Positions 1,029 to 20,021 of a stretch of DNA of 64,000 nt are shown piece by piece (the first letter of the stretch is position 1; each line of letters begins with the position of its first letter). The stretch comes from Roseibacillus ishigakijimensis (GTDB taxonomy: Bacteria; Verrucomicrobiota; Verrucomicrobiia; Verrucomicrobiales; Akkermansiaceae): the NCBI RefSeq assembly GCF_016595415.1, contig NZ_JAENIO010000001.1, positions 124,001-188,000 of the forward strand. The letters run 5' to 3'. The translations under genes were made by a program, and so were the position numbers. The notes under the pieces were generated by a model. That model was not told where the DNA came from and did not search any database. It saw nothing but the letters and a program-made list of their open reading frames with translations.

Positions 1029-1085
1029 CCTGGCCTGTTCCACGTAGAACACCGAACGAAACCAACTTTTACCCTTACTGAACAA

Positions 1086-8716: not shown

Positions 8717-10123
8717 ATGGTGCCCCTCCCCGAAACACGCTACCTTGCGAGTGTGAAAGAAGCACGCTTGCGATTTCTCCATCGGAACTACAGCCGGACC
8801 GGACGTTGGGGCTGGCGGATGAGCAGACGCATCCGGCCCTTTGGTTGGGGAATCCTTCTCCTCACCATACTTGCTGCCGTCCTTGGAGCGAACATCGAAA
8901 ACTCCGCCGTCTATATGATGTTCACCCTCGGAGTCTCCTCCATGGGTTTGGCTCTTCTCTGGTTGGCCTTTCGCCAAGGAAAAATTTCCGGTCACCGCCA
9001 CTTGCCGGAGTTCGCCAGCGTGGGGGAAGAGCTCCACTACACGGTCACAATTAAGAACGAGCACCGCCGGAAACTCGTAGTCATGCTTTTCGAAGAATGG
9101 CCCCCTGATCCCAGCCCCGATTACAAAACCTTTGCCACGACCCCGGAACCGGGGGAGGAGAAGAGAAATCTCGTCGATCGATTTCTTCTCTACTACCGCT
9201 GGACTTGGCTTCAGGAAAGAGAAAGAGGGTTTTCCCTCATTGAGGCCCGGCAATCCCCGCGTCAACTTGCTTCCGGAGAGGTAGGACATCTCCATTTCAC
9301 CCTAATACCCCAACACCGGGGCCTTCTGAAAATCGAAGACTTGAGACTCCTCTTACCCGACCCCATGGGTCTCTTCCAACGCTCTCTGCCCACCCGCATT
9401 CCTCCGGAGCACATCGTAGTGCTGCCCAAGCGCTATCCCATCACCAACTTGCATCTCCTGGGAGCCGCGCATCACCATCTGGGGGGTGATTCAGCTTCCA
9501 ACCGTTCCGGTGACAATGGGGATTTCCTTCATCTCCGGGACTATCAAAACGGCGATGCCATGCGATCAGTCGATTGGAAATCCTGGGCTCGCACCGGACA
9601 ACCGGTCGTTCGCGAATACGAAGATAACTATTACCCGCACTATGGCATCATCCTTGATACCAATGCCCCACTCCACCAGGCGTTCGAAGAGGCCGTCTCG
9701 ATCGCCTCATCTTTTGTGGTCTCAATGAACACTCAAGAATGCCTCTTGGACCTCCTCTTTCTCGGTGATCAGAGCTATCGCTTGACCGCAGGGCAAGGAG
9801 TGGCAAGGAGAGCCAAGCTGCTTGAAGCCCTGGCAACGGTCACAAGCAACCAGCAGGACAATTTCAAAGATTTGGAAGCCCTCATCAAGAAGGAAAGCTC
9901 CCATCTCACCGCCCTCATCGCCATCTTTCCCGACTGGTCACCCAGCCGCCAGCTTTTGGTCCAGTCACTCCAGGCGCGTGGAATGGTCATTCATTCTCTC
10001 ATTGTCGGGGATGATCAGGTGAGCGCGACCTTCGAACAATTTCCCGTGCCTCAAGCTCATCTTCTTTCCCTTTCTCAGATTCCAGCCGATTTGGCACGGG
10101 CCACGCAAAAATTTGCCCCATGA
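8717..10123 (+). CDS. DUF58 domain membrane protein
   Basis: Two adjacent membrane helices (WGILLLTILAAVLGANI and VYMMFTLGVSSMGLALLWL) are followed by a long soluble part. The DUF58 signature occurs in the middle: GDFLHLRDYQNGDAMRSVDW, then WKSWARTGQPVVREYED, and a von Willebrand A-like C-terminal half. DUF58 proteins normally pair with MoxR ATPases and transglutaminase membrane proteins; here the transglutaminase follows with an ATGA overlap, but no MoxR gene is adjacent. The start could be ATG 8717, GTG 8753 or ATG 8819. The longest form is given. The role is probably envelope assembly or protease-like maturation, by context only. Confidence 0.85.
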   Translation: MVPLPETRYLASVKEARLRFLHRNYSRTGRWGWRMSRRIRPFGWGILLLTILAAVLGANIENSAVYMMFTLGVSSMGLALLWLAFRQGKISGHRHLPEFASVGEELHYTVTIKNEHRRKLVVMLFEEWPPDPSPDYKTFATTPEPGEEKRNLVDRFLLYYRWTWLQERERGFSLIEARQSPRQLASGEVGHLHFTLIPQHRGLLKIEDLRLLLPDPMGLFQRSLPTRIPPEHIVVLPKRYPITNLHLLGAAHHHLGGDSASNRSGDNGDFLHLRDYQNGDAMRSVDWKSWARTGQPVVREYEDNYYPHYGIILDTNAPLHQAFEEAVSIASSFVVSMNTQECLLDLLFLGDQSYRLTAGQGVARRAKLLEALATVTSNQQDNFKDLEALIKKESSHLTALIAIFPDWSPSRQLLVQSLQARGMVIHSLIVGDDQVSATFEQFPVPQAHLLSLSQIPADLARATQKFAP

Positions 10124-12339
10124 CAACGACCTCTCCCTCTTCCTATCCTGCGCCCCCCAAATTTCTTCTGGGTCTCGCGGTCATTATCTGGGGTCTGCTC
10201 ACGGACCATCTCTTGACGGGTTTGGTTACCGCCCTTCTGGTGGAAGGCCGCCACTGGTTGAACTGGAGATGGCAATTCAAACTCCGGGGCTACTCGCGAG
10301 CTTGGATTCTCTCACTCATCGTCCTTGCCGGTGTGGTGGCCTATCATTCCCTCAACTTATCCGGGCCGACCGCCGCTTTGGCCTTCATCGAATGGCTGCC
10401 CTTAATCTTTCTGCCCCTTATCCTTGCCCAACAATACGGTGAGGAAGAAGCAGTGCCGACAACCGTTTTTTCCCTCGTCGCCCGCCGTCGCTTGCAACGA
10501 GAACGTCGTCTCGGAAAGATCATTCCCGAGTCCTACATCCAGCTCGGTTATCCCTATTTCGCCTTTATCCTCCTGGCCACCGGCTTCACCGCCAGCGGGC
10601 AAAGGGATCAACTCACCTTTTTCCTCATTCTCATCGCTCTCGTCGCATTTGCCTACTACTTTGGTCAACAACGAGATCAACGACGACTCTGGCCAACAGT
10701 GGTGGCCATGATTCTCGTTGCCACAAGCTCCTATTTTATGAGTCAGGGTCTGGTGCAGCTCTATTACTGGCTCAAACATGGTCACTTCCTCTCCAGCCAA
10801 GGCAAGGATCTGCCGATTCAACAACGAACAGCCATTGGTCAATTGGGCGAACTCAAGCAAACCCGCCGCATCCAATGGCGCCTCAACGTGCCTAAACAAA
10901 CCCGGCCTCCCAAGTTGCTCATGACCGCAGGCTACAACGCCTATCGAGCGGGAAAATGGCAGGCCTGGGATCCTGATTTTCCTGATCAGGACCGAACTTA
11001 CGTGGATCTCCTGACTCTAGCTGGAGAAGAGAATGAAGGAGAATTTGCCTTCGATACCCAGGGTTTCGAACTCAACAACGACGACAGCCCATCACCACCT
11101 CCCATCCGAATTCGAGGGGCCATTGCGACCAACGAGAAAACCCTACCTGCTCCCTCTTCACCGGGTCTCTTTGCCCAAGCCCACGAAATTGATAGTATTG
11201 AACAAAATCGACTCGGCACACTACTTGCCATCAATGCCGGCAGTGTTGTCGACTACCATGTTTGGGAAAGCCGCCATCCAGAATGGCGAGAGGCTCCTCC
11301 CATGGAGCAAATTCGCCCCAACGAAGAACCTGAGATCATTGCGCTATCCCTCCCGAATAAAAACGAATTCTATAACGAACGCCAAGCCATTGAAGAAGTC
11401 GCGGAAGGGCTGAAACTGGCAAGCCTCCCAGAGGAGAAACGAATTCAGACTCTCAAGGATTACTTTCAAGAAAACTTTCGCTATTCCACCCATTTGCGCA
11501 TCTCCGGAGCAGATGGTCGAAGTGCCTTGGCGGATTTTCTCACTGAAACCCGGGAGGGACATTGCGAATATTTTGCCACTGCCACCACTTTGCTTCTGCG
11601 TGCCTCGGGAATCCCCGCTCACTATGTAGTCGGCTACGCAGTGCATGAAAATTCCAAAGAACCAAACGAATACGTCCTGCGAGGAACCCACGCCCATGCC
11701 TGGTGCCGCGCTTATCTGGGAGGAAAAAGTGAAGTCATCGTTGATGAACGCCAGGTCGAAAAAAATGGAGAATTGACCACTCTCTCCTTCACCCGAGTGG
11801 TTTGGAGTGGAGGACAGTGGACCGACATTGATTTGACCCCGCCCAATTGGTTCCAAATCGACTCACCTCCTCCCAACTGGAAAGAACGTCTCGCTGACCA
11901 ACTTCAACGGGGTCGAGAGGATTTTCAGGTTTGGCGATCCAATGAAGCCAACCGGGGCTGGGTGAATCTTCTCTTGGCCGTAGTTGCTTCCGCAGTGCTC
12001 ATTTTTATTGGCTGGCGTCTCATGACCACGCGACTGAAAAAAGATTCTCCCTCACCCCATTCAAGAGCCGAAAATTTCGGTTCCAGAACTCTTCTGAATG
12101 AGAAAATTCCTACCTTGGAACACCACCTCGGCAAGCGTCGGCCCGGAATGAGTTTGGATCGCTGGCTTGCCGAAAATCTCCCTGATTTCCCGGAGTCGAA
12201 TCTCGCAACGATTTTGAGCTATCAAGCAGAACAACGCTTTGCCGATCGCAAGTTGACTCACAGCGAATATGTGGAATTCGAGCGCTTGATCGAGAGTCTC
12301 GTGGAAAGTTGTTCCCAGAGGAAGGAAAGGTCTTTTTAA
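10120..12339 (+). CDS. TgpA-like transglutaminase family membrane protein
   Basis: The 739-residue protein has about five or six N-terminal membrane helices (residues 1-215), an extracytoplasmic transglutaminase core and a C-terminal membrane helix (VNLLLAVVASAVLIFIGW) with a cytoplasmic tail. The catalytic triad is visible: C482 in REGHCEYFATA, H526 in THAHAWC, and Asp in WTDIDLTPPNW. Its start overlaps the DUF58 stop (ATGA), so the two are translated together, as is common in this gene pair. The family is thought to crosslink or cleave envelope proteins. It is the last gene before the candidate replication origin. Confidence 0.9.
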   Translation: MTTTSPSSYPAPPKFLLGLAVIIWGLLTDHLLTGLVTALLVEGRHWLNWRWQFKLRGYSRAWILSLIVLAGVVAYHSLNLSGPTAALAFIEWLPLIFLPLILAQQYGEEEAVPTTVFSLVARRRLQRERRLGKIIPESYIQLGYPYFAFILLATGFTASGQRDQLTFFLILIALVAFAYYFGQQRDQRRLWPTVVAMILVATSSYFMSQGLVQLYYWLKHGHFLSSQGKDLPIQQRTAIGQLGELKQTRRIQWRLNVPKQTRPPKLLMTAGYNAYRAGKWQAWDPDFPDQDRTYVDLLTLAGEENEGEFAFDTQGFELNNDDSPSPPPIRIRGAIATNEKTLPAPSSPGLFAQAHEIDSIEQNRLGTLLAINAGSVVDYHVWESRHPEWREAPPMEQIRPNEEPEIIALSLPNKNEFYNERQAIEEVAEGLKLASLPEEKRIQTLKDYFQENFRYSTHLRISGADGRSALADFLTETREGHCEYFATATTLLLRASGIPAHYVVGYAVHENSKEPNEYVLRGTHAHAWCRAYLGGKSEVIVDERQVEKNGELTTLSFTRVVWSGGQWTDIDLTPPNWFQIDSPPPNWKERLADQLQRGREDFQVWRSNEANRGWVNLLLAVVASAVLIFIGWRLMTTRLKKDSPSPHSRAENFGSRTLLNEKIPTLEHHLGKRRPGMSLDRWLAENLPDFPESNLATILSYQAEQRFADRKLTHSEYVEFERLIESLVESCSQRKERSF

Positions 12340-12369
12340 ATTTGGAAAGAAAACCCTTCTTCCTCTCCT

Positions 12370-12378
12370 TGTGAATAA
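12370..12378 (-). promoter_or_regulatory. DnaA box
   Basis: TGTGAATAA on the + strand is the exact complement of TTATTCACA. It is the only one of the three boxes in the gap that points left. Confidence 0.6.
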
Positions 12379-12476
12379 GCTCTCAAAAAGTCTGTTCCTC
12401 GTTGATTTCATCAGTGTTCCCCAAGGCCAACAAGTTCTGAAACAACTGGGAGAATCCCAGCCATAAGCCCGTAAAG

Positions 12477-12485
12477 TTATTCACA
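12477..12485 (+). promoter_or_regulatory. DnaA box
   Basis: Perfect TTATTCACA, 37 nt before a second identical copy in the same orientation. Confidence 0.6.
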
Positions 12486-12513
12486 GAAGAGTTGCTTCCA
12501 AATTGCTCCCAAC

Positions 12514-12522
12514 TTATTCACA
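12514..12522 (+). promoter_or_regulatory. DnaA box
   Basis: Perfect TTATTCACA, ending 15 nt before the first possible ribD start codon. Binding here could also affect ribD transcription. Confidence 0.6.
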
Positions 12523-12537
12523 CCCTTTTTCGCAGCT

Positions 12538-13617
12538 TTGAGTAGTTCTTCACAATCGGATTTGATGGCCCAGGCAATCGTCGAGGGAAGCAAAGGGGTG
12601 GGCTTGACCGCGCCCAATCCCTCCGTTGGCGCAGTGGTGGTTCGCGAAGGAAAAATCGTTGCCCGTGGGTTTCACCGAGGCGTTGGTCAGCCTCATGCCG
12701 AGATCGAGGCCATTGCGGATGCGGACCGCAAAGGGGTCAATCTGAAGGAATGCGAAATTTTTATCACTTTGGAGCCGTGTTCAAGCTACGGTCGCACTCC
12801 ACCTTGCACGGCAGCGCTCATCGCAAACGGCTTTCGGCGTGTTGTTTGGGCTGCTGACGATCCCAACCCCAACCATAGTGGTCGGGCTTGGGAAATTCTT
12901 CGAGACGCTGGAATCGAAGTGGACAGGGGTCTACTTGCAGAAGAAGCGGCTTATCTTCATCGTGCTTTTTTCAAAGTTCAGCGAAAAGGTCTCCCTTGGT
13001 TGATTGTGAAGACCGCGATGAGCCTTGATGGTCGACTGACCCGCCCGCCGGGTGAAGGACAATGGTTGACCTCGCCTTCAGCCCGCGAGGATGTTCAGAA
13101 GCTTCGGGGGGAAGCCGATGCCATTCTCACTAGTGGAGAAACAGCTCGCTCGGACAATCCCCGTCTCAATTATCGCGGACCCAGAGCGGAAAAAAAACAG
13201 CTCAAGCGAGTCGTCCTCACGCGTATTCCCGAGGCGGGTTTATCTGCGGGTGCTCACCTTCTCAATCCCACTGAGTCTGGTCCGACCCGTTTTGAGGGGG
13301 GTGACATTGAGCAAATTTTGCGCAATCTTGCGCAAGAAGGAATCCAGACCATCCTGGTAGAGGCGGGAGGTCGTCTGGTCGGAGATTTATTGAAACTGGG
13401 GCTGGTCGATGAATGGGTCGCTTACTATGCCCCTCTTGTCTCGGGAGGACCGGTGCCTTCGGTAGGCGGGGGTCAGGAGTCTCATCTTCCGCGACCTCTG
13501 AGCTTGAAAAACCTGGTCTATGAACAAGTGGGGCCAGATCTGAAAGTGAGAGGGTTGATTGGACCGCAGTTGCTCAAAAAATCGGAATCTTTGCGGAGAA
13601 AAGGAGAGACAGAGTAG
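12538..13617 (+). CDS. ribD: Bifunctional riboflavin biosynthesis deaminase/reductase RibD
   Basis: RibD carries out the second and third steps of riboflavin synthesis: pyrimidine deamination, then NADPH-dependent ribosyl reduction. Counting from the TTG at 12538, the zinc deaminase site is H53-A-E55 with C81 and C90 in LEPCSSYGRTPPC. The reductase half starts near residue 155 (VKTAMSLDGRL) and includes GEGQWLTS, AILTSGETARSDNPRL and VEAGGRLVGDLL. ATG 12565 is an equally possible start (MAQAIVEG). Length, 359 aa, is normal. No other rib gene is adjacent. It is the first gene to the right of the DnaA-box cluster, and its codons switch to G/T-rich third positions compared with the genes to the left. 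Confidence 0.92.
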   Translation: MSSSSQSDLMAQAIVEGSKGVGLTAPNPSVGAVVVREGKIVARGFHRGVGQPHAEIEAIADADRKGVNLKECEIFITLEPCSSYGRTPPCTAALIANGFRRVVWAADDPNPNHSGRAWEILRDAGIEVDRGLLAEEAAYLHRAFFKVQRKGLPWLIVKTAMSLDGRLTRPPGEGQWLTSPSAREDVQKLRGEADAILTSGETARSDNPRLNYRGPRAEKKQLKRVVLTRIPEAGLSAGAHLLNPTESGPTRFEGGDIEQILRNLAQEGIQTILVEAGGRLVGDLLKLGLVDEWVAYYAPLVSGGPVPSVGGGQESHLPRPLSLKNLVYEQVGPDLKVRGLIGPQLLKKSESLRRKGETE

Positions 13618-15786: not shown

Positions 15787-17013
15787 ATGAAGCCTTCCCT
15801 GCGCACTGCTCTTCTGTTGGCCGCCTTTGCGGTTGCCGTGCTACTTGCTACCAAGGTGGGCGCGCAAGTTGAGCTTTGCCCGGGGATGCCCAACGGGCCG
15901 TTGATTTCCAATCCGGCAGAGGCCAGTTGTGTCTACGATGCCTCTAGTCATTCGGCAGTGGTGACCTTTAATCAAGCCACGGTGCTGGAGTGGCCGCAGC
16001 TACGACAGGGTGCGGAGAGCGAAATGACCTTCACCTTTCCCACGGCCGTCTCCAATGCCACTGTGCTCAATCGGTTGGGTCGACTATCGAATGGCCAAAT
16101 GCATCGTCTTGACGGCACTTTGCGATCCAATGGGCGGGTCATTTTCTTGAGTCCCCACGCCGGACTTTCTCTTGCTGGCGATTTGCAGGCGAGAGAATTC
16201 GTGGCGGTGGCAAGTGGCGTCAGCGCGAGCGGGATAGACGGTCTCCTTGCGGGTGATACCGAAGTGGTCTTCGAGCCTTCAGGAGGGACCCAGGGTGGTG
16301 GCCAACTTTTGACAGTCTCCAATGCCCGAATCGAGGCGACCGGGGGCGATGTGGTTCTGGGAGCGGCGAGGGGGGTCATCATCAGCAACACCGTATCGAG
16401 GCCGTCGCTGATTGTCTCGCAGGAGGCGACCCGGATCTTTGCCGGTGATGGCATGCGCTACGATCCGACCATTAGTGGTGGCGAGCAACTCTCCCCTGTG
16501 GTGGGCAGCCGGGCCAGCGTAGTTAGTCATAGTGGCCGCATCACGGCAGGCACGGATGTGGAGATTCGTGGTAGCGAGAGCAGTGAGCTGCTCATCACGG
16601 GTCCTATTTCGGCAGGGGAAGGAGGGCGGATTTTCCTGAGAGTGAGCGAGGGACGCATTGATTTGAATCCGCAGGCTACGCTGGCGGGAACTCTGGAGTC
16701 GACCGGAAGCTTTTCTTCTTTGCTTCTGGAGGGGAGCTCCGGAGATACGCCGGGTGCGAGCAACCCGGCGACCAGTCTCTTTCCTTCTTTGCGGAAAGAG
16801 GGCGCCACCGATCGGAGTGGCGGTCGCACCAAGGCAATCAAAGTGCATCGCGGCGCACCCGTGGTGGCGAATGCGGGCTTCCGGCGGGAAGAGCAAGCAA
16901 GGGGCAATCGAGAACGCGTGCGGGCCGCAGCGGAAGGGCAGCGTCGGCAGACTCTGGTGCAGCGCTCGGGCTTTTTTGGCCTTCGTCGCAGTGAGAAACC
17001 TACCCAACGCTAG
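15787..17013 (+). CDS. Short secreted protein with haemagglutinin-type (TPS-like) N-terminal domain
   Basis: After a clear signal peptide ([19 protein letters not shown]) the first ~150 residues resemble the TPS domain of filamentous haemagglutinins: [39 protein letters not shown] and then [16 protein letters not shown]. Repetitive beta-strand sequence continues to about residue 330 ([14 protein letters not shown]). The last 80 residues are Arg-rich and low-complexity. At 408 aa it is far shorter than true FHA adhesins, and no TpsB (FhaC-like) transporter is adjacent. Its 3' end overlaps the convergent CHAT protease gene by 14 bp. TPS-like and CHAT genes are neighbours in several phyla, so a functional link is an inference. 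Confidence 0.65.
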
Positions 17014-19690
17014 TAGCCTTCCCTTTCCGCTTGCGGGCGGAAACGAGGCCAAGGATCCCGGCGAAGATGAGCAGGGCACCAAGGGTCCAAGGATGAGGTG
17101 TTCGGCTGGGGGGCGGGTTCGTGCTCGTTTGCAGACTGGTGAGCTCTTTGAGGTTCACTTCGTCGGCTGGGATCAAGGCTGGCAGGGGGCCCTGATGGGT
17201 CATGAGGAAAGGCCCGTAGCGGAGGACGGCTTCTTCAAGCCCGGCATCCGAGTTGCTCTTGTCGATGGACTGGCGTAGGAGGTGAGTTTGCAGTCGCCAG
17301 AGATTTTGATTGGGATTGGGATGAAGTCGGCTTAGTTCGTAAAAATCCCTCATAAAGTGAGCAGTCGAGAGGTCGGGAACTTGCCAGAGGGTCATCAGCA
17401 CGCTGCGGGCACCGGCAAGCATGAAGGCGCGGCGGAGACCCAGCACGCCCTCCCCGGTGAGAGGAAGTCCGCGACCGGTATGGCAAGCCGAGAGGGTGAC
17501 GAGGTGGGTGTCACCGAGGGGCAGCCGGGCAATGTCGGCCGGGTAGAGTTGCTGCTTGTGACTCAAATGAAGGCCGGAGCTCTGGAGAATCTCGGGCTGG
17601 GCATCGAAGTCGCCTCGAAAATGAGCTCCTTCTTTTTCCCCCTGATAAAAGGCGTGGGTCGCCAGGTGAAGAACCGTCCCCGGCGAATGCTGCTTCAGGA
17701 GGATTGCCAAGGGATCCCTTGGATCGAGGGCGGTGATGCTTCCCTTGGGGGCGAGTTTGCTGATCTCGGCCAGTTCTTCCGCCACTGAGGGCAAATCCGA
17801 GAGGGGATGATTATCCGGCATCTCGGGGGAGGAGAATTGGGAAAGACCAAGCAGGGTCCAAGGGCCGGCGAAGAGATCGAGGGGAAGATGCGCCTCCGAG
17901 AGCGCACGCCGGGAGCTGACAAAGAGAACCTGAGGGTAGACTTCGCCTAGAAGTTTTCCCTTGGCATCAAGTAAACTGTTGTAGGGAAGGAAGTGCAAGG
18001 CCCCATCCGGGCAGAGAAAAAGGGTCTCGGTGCCTGCAGGTAGCCGGGTGAGGGCAGGAGCAAGAAATCGCTGGTGGATTTGCTTGAGGACTGCCTCCAG
18101 CCGTATCGGCGGGGCTTGGGAGGGGGAACCGCCGAGGATGACGCTGCGGTGATTCAAGCGGGCGGTCAGGGCCTTGAGCCATCGATTAAGAGTCTGCTCG
18201 CTAGCCAGTTCGCAAAAGTGAATCTCGCTCTGGGTTTCAATAATTGCTCCGTAATGATAGTGCCACTGCCCGTTCTGTGGCTTGCGGTAGCGGATGAAAT
18301 CAATGAAGGCTGCTGAAGGAGCCAGGGCGTGTGCTTCTGCGGTGTCAATCTGTGTTTCGGCATTTTCCCTCGATATCAAGCTATCCTGCAGAAGACCTTT
18401 GTTGGCCGCGAGAAGACGGTGCAAGCGGCGGGCGTTGCCCCGGCAAGCGGGGAGGGAATAGAGGTCGAATTGAGAAAGAAAATTCAGCCGTTCTCTTTCG
18501 CTTCCGTGATTGAGCAGGTGCTGGAGGGCGGCTTCCGCTTGTTCGCAGGCGATTGCGGTGGCTTGGCGGGCTTCTTCTTCCCATCCGGCCAAGTGGGCGT
18601 TCCAAGCGAGATTTTGCAACCATTCGGCGCGTTGCTGATGTCCGTGCGCCAGGCCCTTCATCTCGTTTTCAATGGCCTGCAGAGCCGATTCCATCTCCTG
18701 GCGGGCGAGTTCATGATTGTGCTGAAGCATGGCCGCAAAGCCGATGTTGTGGTGGTAGCTGGCCAGGGCGGGGTGGTGGCGGGGAAAGTAGGGGCCGAGG
18801 AGGGCGAGGGCCTCGCGGAAAGTGGCTTCCGCTGCCTCGGGATCATTGGCGAGCTCGAATTCTCCCGCCTTGTTGAGAATTTCCGCTTCCGCTCGGGCCC
18901 GGGTGTAGCTTTCAGGCTGCTGCCGAATGAGGGTGAGAGCGGTGATGAGCGAGTCTTGCGCCGCGCCTTCTTCCCCGGCCCGGTGTTGGCTGAGTGCGAG
19001 CAGATCGTAGAAGGGAGCGAGATTCAGCCCTTCCACTTTTTGGCCGAAGGCGATCGCTTGCTGGGAATGCTCGCTTGCGCGGTGGTAGTTCCGGATGGTG
19101 AGGAGATAGCGCGCTAAATGGTGGTGCCGTAATGCCCGCAGTTCGACCTCGTCAACGGGGGTGGCTGCCAGGGCGCGGGTTAATCGGGACCCAGCTTCTT
19201 GATACTTGCCCGCCGAGAGGAGTGTGAGAGCGAGGTGATCCGCAGTGATGCTTTCCCAATAGGCGGCCTCCTCACTGGGCACCTGCTGCCAATAGTGGAG
19301 GGACGAGCGGAAGGCGGCTTCAGCCTCTCCCAAGGCGCCGCTTTCCTGACAAGCTTGCCCAAGCAGATCGGCGAGGCGCGCACGCAGTTTTAACTCGATA
19401 TCAAGGGAATTGGCTTCGCGGAGGGCCTGCTCGAGGACTTGGCAAGCGAGACCGGATTGTCCATCCGCGAGGAGGGCCATCCCTTGGGCGAGGCGGGTGC
19501 GGGCGAGTTCCTCATTGTCATCCGCACTTCGCTTGGCGAGGGAGAGAAGTTCGCTTTCCCGGTGGCGGAGCTCTGCGATGGCTTCCTGGTAGCGGCCGGT
19601 GGCGAAGAGCTCACTCGGGCTCGGTGCGGCCGTCGCCGGACAAAGGGCGAGGAGCAAGGAAGCGAGGACGAGAATGGAAGGCAATCTCAC
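17000..19690 (-). CDS. TPR-CHAT protease, exported, with C-terminal membrane anchor
   Basis: CHAT domains are caspase-like cysteine proteases. From the GTG at 19690 the protein has 896 aa: signal peptide ([20 protein letters not shown]), tetratricopeptide-type helical repeats to about residue 470, and a CHAT domain from about 540 to 850. The catalytic dyad is H679 in LHLATHAFY and C736 in [10 protein letters not shown], followed by [20 protein letters not shown]. The C-terminus has one membrane helix ([18 protein letters not shown]) and a basic tail. The open frame runs upstream to 19924, but that part overlaps the ferredoxin gene and looks non-coding. The overlap with the TPS-like gene suggests co-evolution. 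Confidence 0.85.
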
Positions 19691-19709
19691 GGCAGGGTGG
19701 AAATGAGCC

Positions 19710-20021
19710 TCACGGCTCGTGCGGAGGAGAGATGCGCAGATCTTCCACCGGCTTTCCGCCGAGTAGGTGTTCCTGAATGATACGCTCGAGATTATCCGGA
19801 TGACAATGACGATACCACACGTCGTCGGGATAGACGACTGCGACGGGTCCTTCCACACAGACGCGGAGACAGTCAGCCTTGCTGCGGCGGATTTCTTGGC
19901 TCGGCTGGGGGAGCTGGAGTTCACCCAACCGCTTTTTCAGATAGTTCCAGGCAGCTTCCCCCTCCGGGGGTTGGCAGCATTTTCCTTTTGTGGGCAGGGC
20001 ACAGAGGAAGATGTGCCGCAT
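19710..20021 (-). CDS. Thioredoxin-like [2Fe-2S] ferredoxin
   Basis: This 103-residue protein has the four-cysteine pattern of the thioredoxin-like 2Fe-2S ferredoxins: [14 protein letters not shown] near the start, then [12 protein letters not shown], followed by [18 protein letters not shown] and EHLLGGKPV. These soluble proteins carry single electrons; partners vary. ATG 20021 is preferred because the domain starts immediately with it; an upstream ATG at 20066 would overlap the GH63 gene by 19 bp. The gene lies between gh63 (upstream) and the CHAT gene (downstream), all on the minus strand with small gaps, so it could be part of one transcript. Confidence 0.82.

Follow-up and report, generated by a model that had tools for sequence, protein, structure and literature searches.

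At the Escherichia coli oriC, the unwinding region lies to the left of an inverted first DnaA box, with the T-rich strand on that side, and the origin sits away from dnaA; to our knowledge, it carries no rigid GTTCC pair. The locus described here, an intergenic gap next to ribD in a 64-kb window (the whole stretch of 64,000 nucleotides analysed), shares this arrangement but differs from the E. coli origin, which contains IHF sites, Fis sites and 13-mers.

As far as the available parts of the reports describe them, DnaA-trios are 5'-TAG-3'-like triplets on the strand that forms the 5' tail to a DnaA box, and published searches look for 3'-NAN-5' within 16 nt of the box (PMC8287927, PMC10316083, PMC6669920, PMC8235120). 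In the basal unwinding system (BUS) with DnaA-trios, as at Bacillus subtilis incC and other origins, a box, a trinucleotide run and an AT-rich unwinding region follow one another in series, and a second box group lies farther off (PMC8287927, PMC6669920). The present locus has both features, except that its 5'-tail strand carries 5'-TCW-3' where the BUS carries 5'-TAG-3'. The Thermotoga maritima oriC, with its TAG eTrio, likewise has a trinucleotide module, adjoining DnaA boxes that differ in orientation, but it again has TAG rather than TCW, and no GTTCC pair is mentioned in the accessible portion of that report (PMC10316083). Among verrucomicrobia, the origin of Methylacidiphilum infernorum was also placed by GC skew; it lies 250 nt upstream of dnaA, according to the part of the account available (PMC2474590), whereas dnaA is on another contig here. 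In a set of twelve gut bacteria that includes Akkermansia muciniphila YL44, parS clusters together with GC skew served to place the origins, which dnaA does not always mark (PMC10197239). The nearby parS cluster and the separation from dnaA are shared with the present locus; the available part of that study describes no DnaA-box or trio architecture. Within the partial literature covered, the module reported below is described in no title or abstract opening found on Verrucomicrobia, Akkermansia, Roseibacillus or ribD origins.

The ribD-side gap region is very probably the chromosome replication origin (oriC), in line with the original prediction of an origin between a transglutaminase gene and ribD with no dnaA beside it. 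This sequence-based assignment draws on a GC skew minimum in the gap, a parS cluster nearby, the position of dnaA on another contig, a box spacing that relatives keep upstream of ribD, and a rigid module found in much of the family, with rare exceptions once per genome. The trinucleotide repeat, the GTTCC pair and the parS cluster extend the original prediction. The architecture appears to be a variant, differing from that of the textbook origin and common to many relatives. The features are listed in Table 1.

Table 1. Features of the putative origin region and its surroundings, in window coordinates
Feature	Position	Strand	Remarks
parS-like site TGTTCCACGTAGAACA	1036-1051		four more just left of the window, C104:120999-123072
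Transglutaminase-core gene, left flank	10120-12339	+	PF01841
AT-rich stretch, likely DNA unwinding element	12328-12354		overlaps end of transglutaminase gene
Trinucleotide repeat CCTTCTTCCTCT, decayed copy of family TCWTCWTCWTNW	12355-12366	+	conserved columns in 59 aligned sequences
DnaA box 1, TTATTCACA	12370-12378	-	exact match; faces repeat; GNGARTAA in family module
GTTCCNC site 1 (GTTCCTC)	12394-12400	+	15 nt after box 1
GTTCCNC site 2 (GTTCCCC)	12416-12422	+	22 bp after site 1
Degenerate GAATAA element, GCCAACAA here	12426-12433	-	GAATAA-like in most relatives
DnaA box, TTATTCACA	12477-12485	+	exact match
DnaA box, TTATTCACA	12514-12522	+	exact match; 144 bp from box 1
Near DnaA box, TTCTTCACA	12546-12554	+	1 mismatch
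Cumulative GC skew minimum of 210-kb contig	12557
ribD, right flank	12565-13617	+	PF01872, PF00383; relatives' RibD alignment starts at about this ATG

The three identical boxes reported originally at 12370 on the minus strand and at 12477 and 12514 on the plus strand are confirmed, and they are the sole occurrences of TTATNCACA in the window. Their clustering is improbable by chance, as had been supposed: dinucleotide shuffles of the window give a mean of 0.57 copies, with three reached in 1 of 100 shuffles, and random placement of the 24 genome-wide sites yields a triple within the observed span in 0 of 200,000 simulations. The genome-wide count of 24, the figure that the original prediction had proposed to establish, compares with 15 for a control pattern (4.14 Mb in 192 contigs), and one other triple cluster is found, at C106:23847-24154. 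The cluster of boxes in the window is intergenic. For the gap itself, originally drawn as 12340-12537, the left end holds, while the right end had assumed a TTG start for ribD; because the ATG at 12565 fits the RibD proteins of relatives, the gap is 12340-12564. Moreover, an inverted-to-direct box spacing of 144-146 bp is found upstream of ribD, at up to one mismatch, in 8 of 30 loci from genomes of the same genus or family (G000, G001, G002, G003, G011, G012, G014 and G016).

Box clusters are also seen elsewhere. The second triple TTATTCACA cluster (L012:3847-4154) lies upstream of nadA with no skew switch and is shared, with little change in position, by G000, G001 and G002; it is absent in G003 and in 15 genomes of other genera. 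Within the genus it may serve to titrate or reactivate DnaA. Dense TTATTCACA-like arrays occur away from both the module and ribD in L024 (G012) and L025 (G020), the latter including four boxes every 10 bp.

The cumulative GC skew of the 210,419-base contig C104 reaches its minimum inside the gap, at C104:136557, and the window taken alone has its minimum at the same position. As the original prediction stated from counts of single lines, the plus strand is C-rich to the left of the gap and G-rich just to the right, and the sign is the same for genes of both strands: with ORFs split by strand and side, the skew is -0.084 (32 on the minus strand) and -0.118 (42 on the plus strand) on the left, and +0.136 (17 on the minus strand) and +0.068 (20 on the plus strand) on the right. 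This two-sided contrast is equalled by 0 of 20,000 shuffles of 5-kb blocks. The noise described earlier, with opposite signs in parts of 22.9-33 kb, corresponds to a real patch of opposite sign at approximately 26-33 kb. Of the two skew curves proposed as a check, the cumulative GC curve on contig C104 places its minimum in the gap, but the third-position cumulative curve by gene bottoms at window 35831 instead, because gene strand dominates that curve; within each gene strand, third-position skew rises across the site, from -0.316 to -0.113 and from 0.011 to 0.363. Elsewhere in the genome, 31 stretches on 12 further contigs show no sustained negative-to-positive switch, the skew sample amounting to 0.81 of 4.14 Mb (about a fifth); one of the stretches, L195, starts at -0.005 and then turns positive. 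Contig C104, of 58% GC, also contains a stretch of 30% GC (G000:C104:80001-85000, L006), which was possibly acquired horizontally.

In relatives, the minimum of cumulative skew was located in eight stretches. In four of them it is no more than 0.8 kb from the module: G001 (143988 versus 143821), G012 (262905 versus 263665), G016 (14517 versus 14328) and G018 (41458 versus 41797), the stretches being short for G016 (20 kb) and G018 (33 kb). It lies off the module in G347 (by 20 kb), G069 (21 kb) and G079 (9 kb, in a 20-kb stretch), and in G066, where skew is mostly positive on both sides, it is likewise not at the module. Local skew around relatives' loci lends weak support: among 20 with enough flank, it rises across the module in 17, is negative on the left in 12 and is positive on the right in 15.

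Genome-wide, five parS-like sites with at most two mismatches to the parS consensus, TGTTYCACGTGRAACA, are present, all within C104:120999-125051 and thus 11-15.5 kb left of the gap. The palindromic pattern scores five per strand against two per strand for its reversed control, and the sites are spread over an ORF that looks mnmG-like by eye, its surroundings and the genes to its right. The single dnaA, followed by a dnaN-like ORF (by eye), is located on contig C126 and the single ParB_N on contig C115, so neither gene marks the origin; with the putative origin on C104, dnaA does not lie beside it. The module and dnaA are on different contigs in G001, G002, G003 and G012 as well. In relatives, the distance from the module to the closest parS-like site is 2.5-5.5 kb (G018, G347, G066, G069 and G079), approximately 12 kb (G012) or 43 kb (G001), and no such site is seen in the 20 kb available for G016. 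On the minus strand at window 17000-19924, close to the putative origin, a large protein with TPR and CHAT domains is encoded.

Box 1 belongs to a rigid module with the order AT-rich stretch, 5'-TCW-3' repeat, 3 nt, inverted DnaA box, 15 nt, GTTCCNC, 15 nt and GTTCC. The window differs from the combined pattern by two mismatches, and both its repeat and its GAATAA element are decayed. The stretch at 12328-12354, the predicted unwinding element beside box 1, is 74% AT against 43% for the window and ranks among the eight most AT-rich 27-mers with starts at 12000-12999; by eye, relatives are AT-rich at the matching place. From box 1 through both GTTCC sites to the next two elements, centre-to-centre distances are 23, 22, 10 and 11 bp, each near whole helical turns. 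The 22-bp GTTCC pair occurs once in 0.81 Mb of the genome's own sequence, at this locus, with other tried spacings giving 0-2 each.

The full pattern, at up to three mismatches, matches 152 of 260 genomes and 11 of 16 genera of the family compared (the one containing Akkermansiaceae), with no match for the reversed control; there is one match per genome, except for G122 with two on two contigs. Roseibacillus persicicus KCTC 12988 (G001), of the window genus, carries the module at C8:143821. By row count, the 108 family genomes with no match include all 76 of genus g3, outside which the pattern is found in 152 of 184 family genomes. A g3 genome with no module match, G005, carries TTATTAACA upstream of ribD at one mismatch; measured from the start of ribD, its parS-like sites lie at 1.6 and 3.8 kb and its skew minimum at about 1 kb. 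Boxes upstream of ribD read TTATTAACA in both L052 (G005) and L045 (G017), and in L045 a TTC repeat precedes TGTTAACAA; a box letter may have changed in the genera of these two genomes.

A shorter exact pattern (box, 15 nt, GTTYYNC, 15 nt, RTTCC) is found in 60 of 386 genomes of the order, once in each, with no control match; by row count, these are 58 of 227 family genomes and 2 of 159 outside the family. A stricter pattern applied to the genome_contigs collection matches 57 stretches. Most of their titles name Akkermansiaceae, Akkermansia, Roseibacillus or other Verrucomicrobiota; six come from unrelated bacteria, and the repeat is missing from all of these and from L069. Leaving them out, together with L102 and L124 (both incomplete), reduces 68 distinct sequences by nine to an alignment of 59, the window's own included. 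Outside the letters fixed by the pattern, this alignment conserves the repeat at -16 to -5, AC at +50/+51 (55 of 59), A at +58, +59, +61 and +62 (54-58 of 59) and G at +66 (55 of 59). A wider, phylum-level claim was dropped: an exact search for repeat plus box matched 5 of 387 genomes, where about 1.5 are estimated by chance; three of the five belong to the family, and the genome of the window is not among them. Since the two matches outside the family have no GTTCC pair (by eye), no claim is made beyond it.

The repeat resembles the DnaA-trio only in part. At least three TCW triplets lie beside the box in 53 of 59 sequences, compared with 0.25% of shuffles and none of seven chance matches, giving a three-nucleotide periodic repeat that adjoins the box as in the BUS; the window copy is decayed, with a TCW run of one. 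When at least three 3'-NAN-5' triplets are sought within 16 nt of the box on the 5'-tail strand, 19 of 59 sequences (32%) score against 28% in shuffles, so that no enrichment above chance is found on the expected strand in these 59 sequences; on the opposite strand the count is 57 of 59 versus 63% in shuffles. In the window itself, a run of three at spacer 15 falls outside the repeat, and the opposite strand has a run of three at spacer 4. Judged by its letters and spacing, the repeat is trio-like in place and period, not in sequence.

GTTCC sites also recur upstream of dnaA. GTTCCAC is present there on the minus strand in 15 of 16 family loci, which suggests that a factor acting at the origin also controls dnaA, and GTTCCNC occurs 21 times in all across the 16 loci, against 2.9 expected from letter shuffles. 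In the family region (L221-L235), the conserved GTGGAAC appears as GTGGAACnnnnGTGGAA in 7 of the 16 loci; a second GTGGAA follows with a period of 11 bp in 7 of 16 and of 12 bp in one. On the other strand, the second copy in G018 and G009 reads TTTTCCACA, near a DnaA box, and that in two further genomes TATTCCACA or CATTCCACA; G000, G001 and G002 instead have GTTCC[CT]C on the plus strand 31 bp on. Among further family loci, G005 has a GTTCCAC-type site and G007 does not; in other families, a site is found in 1 of 10 loci with upstream sequence (G020, as GTTCCCC). It was also considered whether the variable box position follows a residue in the recognition helix of DnaA. This was dropped because GRDHGT, the motif with that residue, is seen throughout the order's six families in all cases where the correct frame could be read (G003, G009, G010 and G019 excepted).

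Taken as a whole, the region 12328-12564 is best explained, with high confidence, as oriC, where DnaA would drive opening next to the TCW repeat. From the observed sequences, spacings, conservation, skew minimum and parS cluster, we infer the binding and melting steps as follows. DnaA would bind box 1 together with the boxes on its right-hand side. The two GTTCCNC sites and the GAATAA element lie on approximately the same helix face as box 1 and probably serve as weak DnaA-like sites that extend the oligomer. A DnaA filament would then move from box 1 onto the adjoining trinucleotide repeat and open the AT-rich stretch, where the helicase would be loaded, and ParB acting at the parS cluster would segregate the new origins.

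Boxes of this kind might instead form a DnaA control or titration locus, similar to datA or DARS, or a DnaA-regulated ribD promoter, with the true origin elsewhere. The triple cluster upstream of nadA, kept in three of four genomes of the window genus without a skew switch, shows that box clusters do occur outside origins, yet it is absent from the 16 other genomes examined, G003 among them, and the skew minimum inside the gap, the nearby parS cluster and the retention of the module's form where ribD is not found beside it make a control locus very unlikely here. An RNA leader or promoter element of ribD is more improbable still, to the point of being hardly credible. It would account for the 33 of 61 loci in which ribD starts 195-271 bp downstream of the module start, directly behind it; however, an Rfam scan of 11800-13200 gives no match up to E = 1, ribD is about 4.5 kb away in one locus, and it is not found in the stretch at 27 loci, so the module is more than a part of ribD. 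Some of these 27 stretches are incomplete, and one, L103, is from G001, which does have ribD after the module; G008 has the two on separate contigs.

The factor that reads GTTCCNC is less clear-cut. DnaA binding at these sites is a guess, because those of the window share four to six of nine letters with the DnaA box. A regulator other than DnaA acting on both oriC and the dnaA promoter, in a CtrA-like role, or ParB reading the motif as half a parS, is a substantial possibility, although we would put it somewhat below an even chance. The same limited likeness to the box, the AC at +50/+51 kept beyond the pattern-fixed letters and the GTTCCAC upstream of dnaA in 15 of the 16 family loci fit another regulator; against it, the second repeat upstream of dnaA comes near a DnaA box in G018 and G009, with TATTCCACA or CATTCCACA in two others, and box 1 and site 1 both vary at position 7, favouring DnaA. 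For ParB, GTTCCAC lies within a half site of the relatives' parS, TGTTCCACGTGGAACA, but origins of the window genus have GTTCCTC or GTTCCCC (with one GTTCCAC, in G003), and the window's parS-like sites are mostly TGTTCCA or TGTTTCA. The half-site reading is weakened by these window-genus sites.

With oriC next to ribD as the preferred assignment, it is close to, though just short of, an even prospect that the lineage has its own origin code, in which DnaA would engage a TCW repeat instead of a TAG-type DnaA-trio, and a helically phased GTTCCNC pair would double as the control element of the dnaA promoter. One factor, either DnaA through a new class of weak sites or an undescribed regulator, would thereby couple origin firing to initiator supply across the family. 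For a bacterial family that is widespread and mostly uncultured, and whose origin is not marked by dnaA, the locus provides an exact position that can be tested as origin; growth-rate estimates from metagenomes that are anchored at dnaA would consequently be misplaced. The TCW repeat offers a test of how uniform DnaA-trio recognition really is, and GTTCCNC, common to oriC and the dnaA upstream region, points to an initiation control element that can be footprinted.
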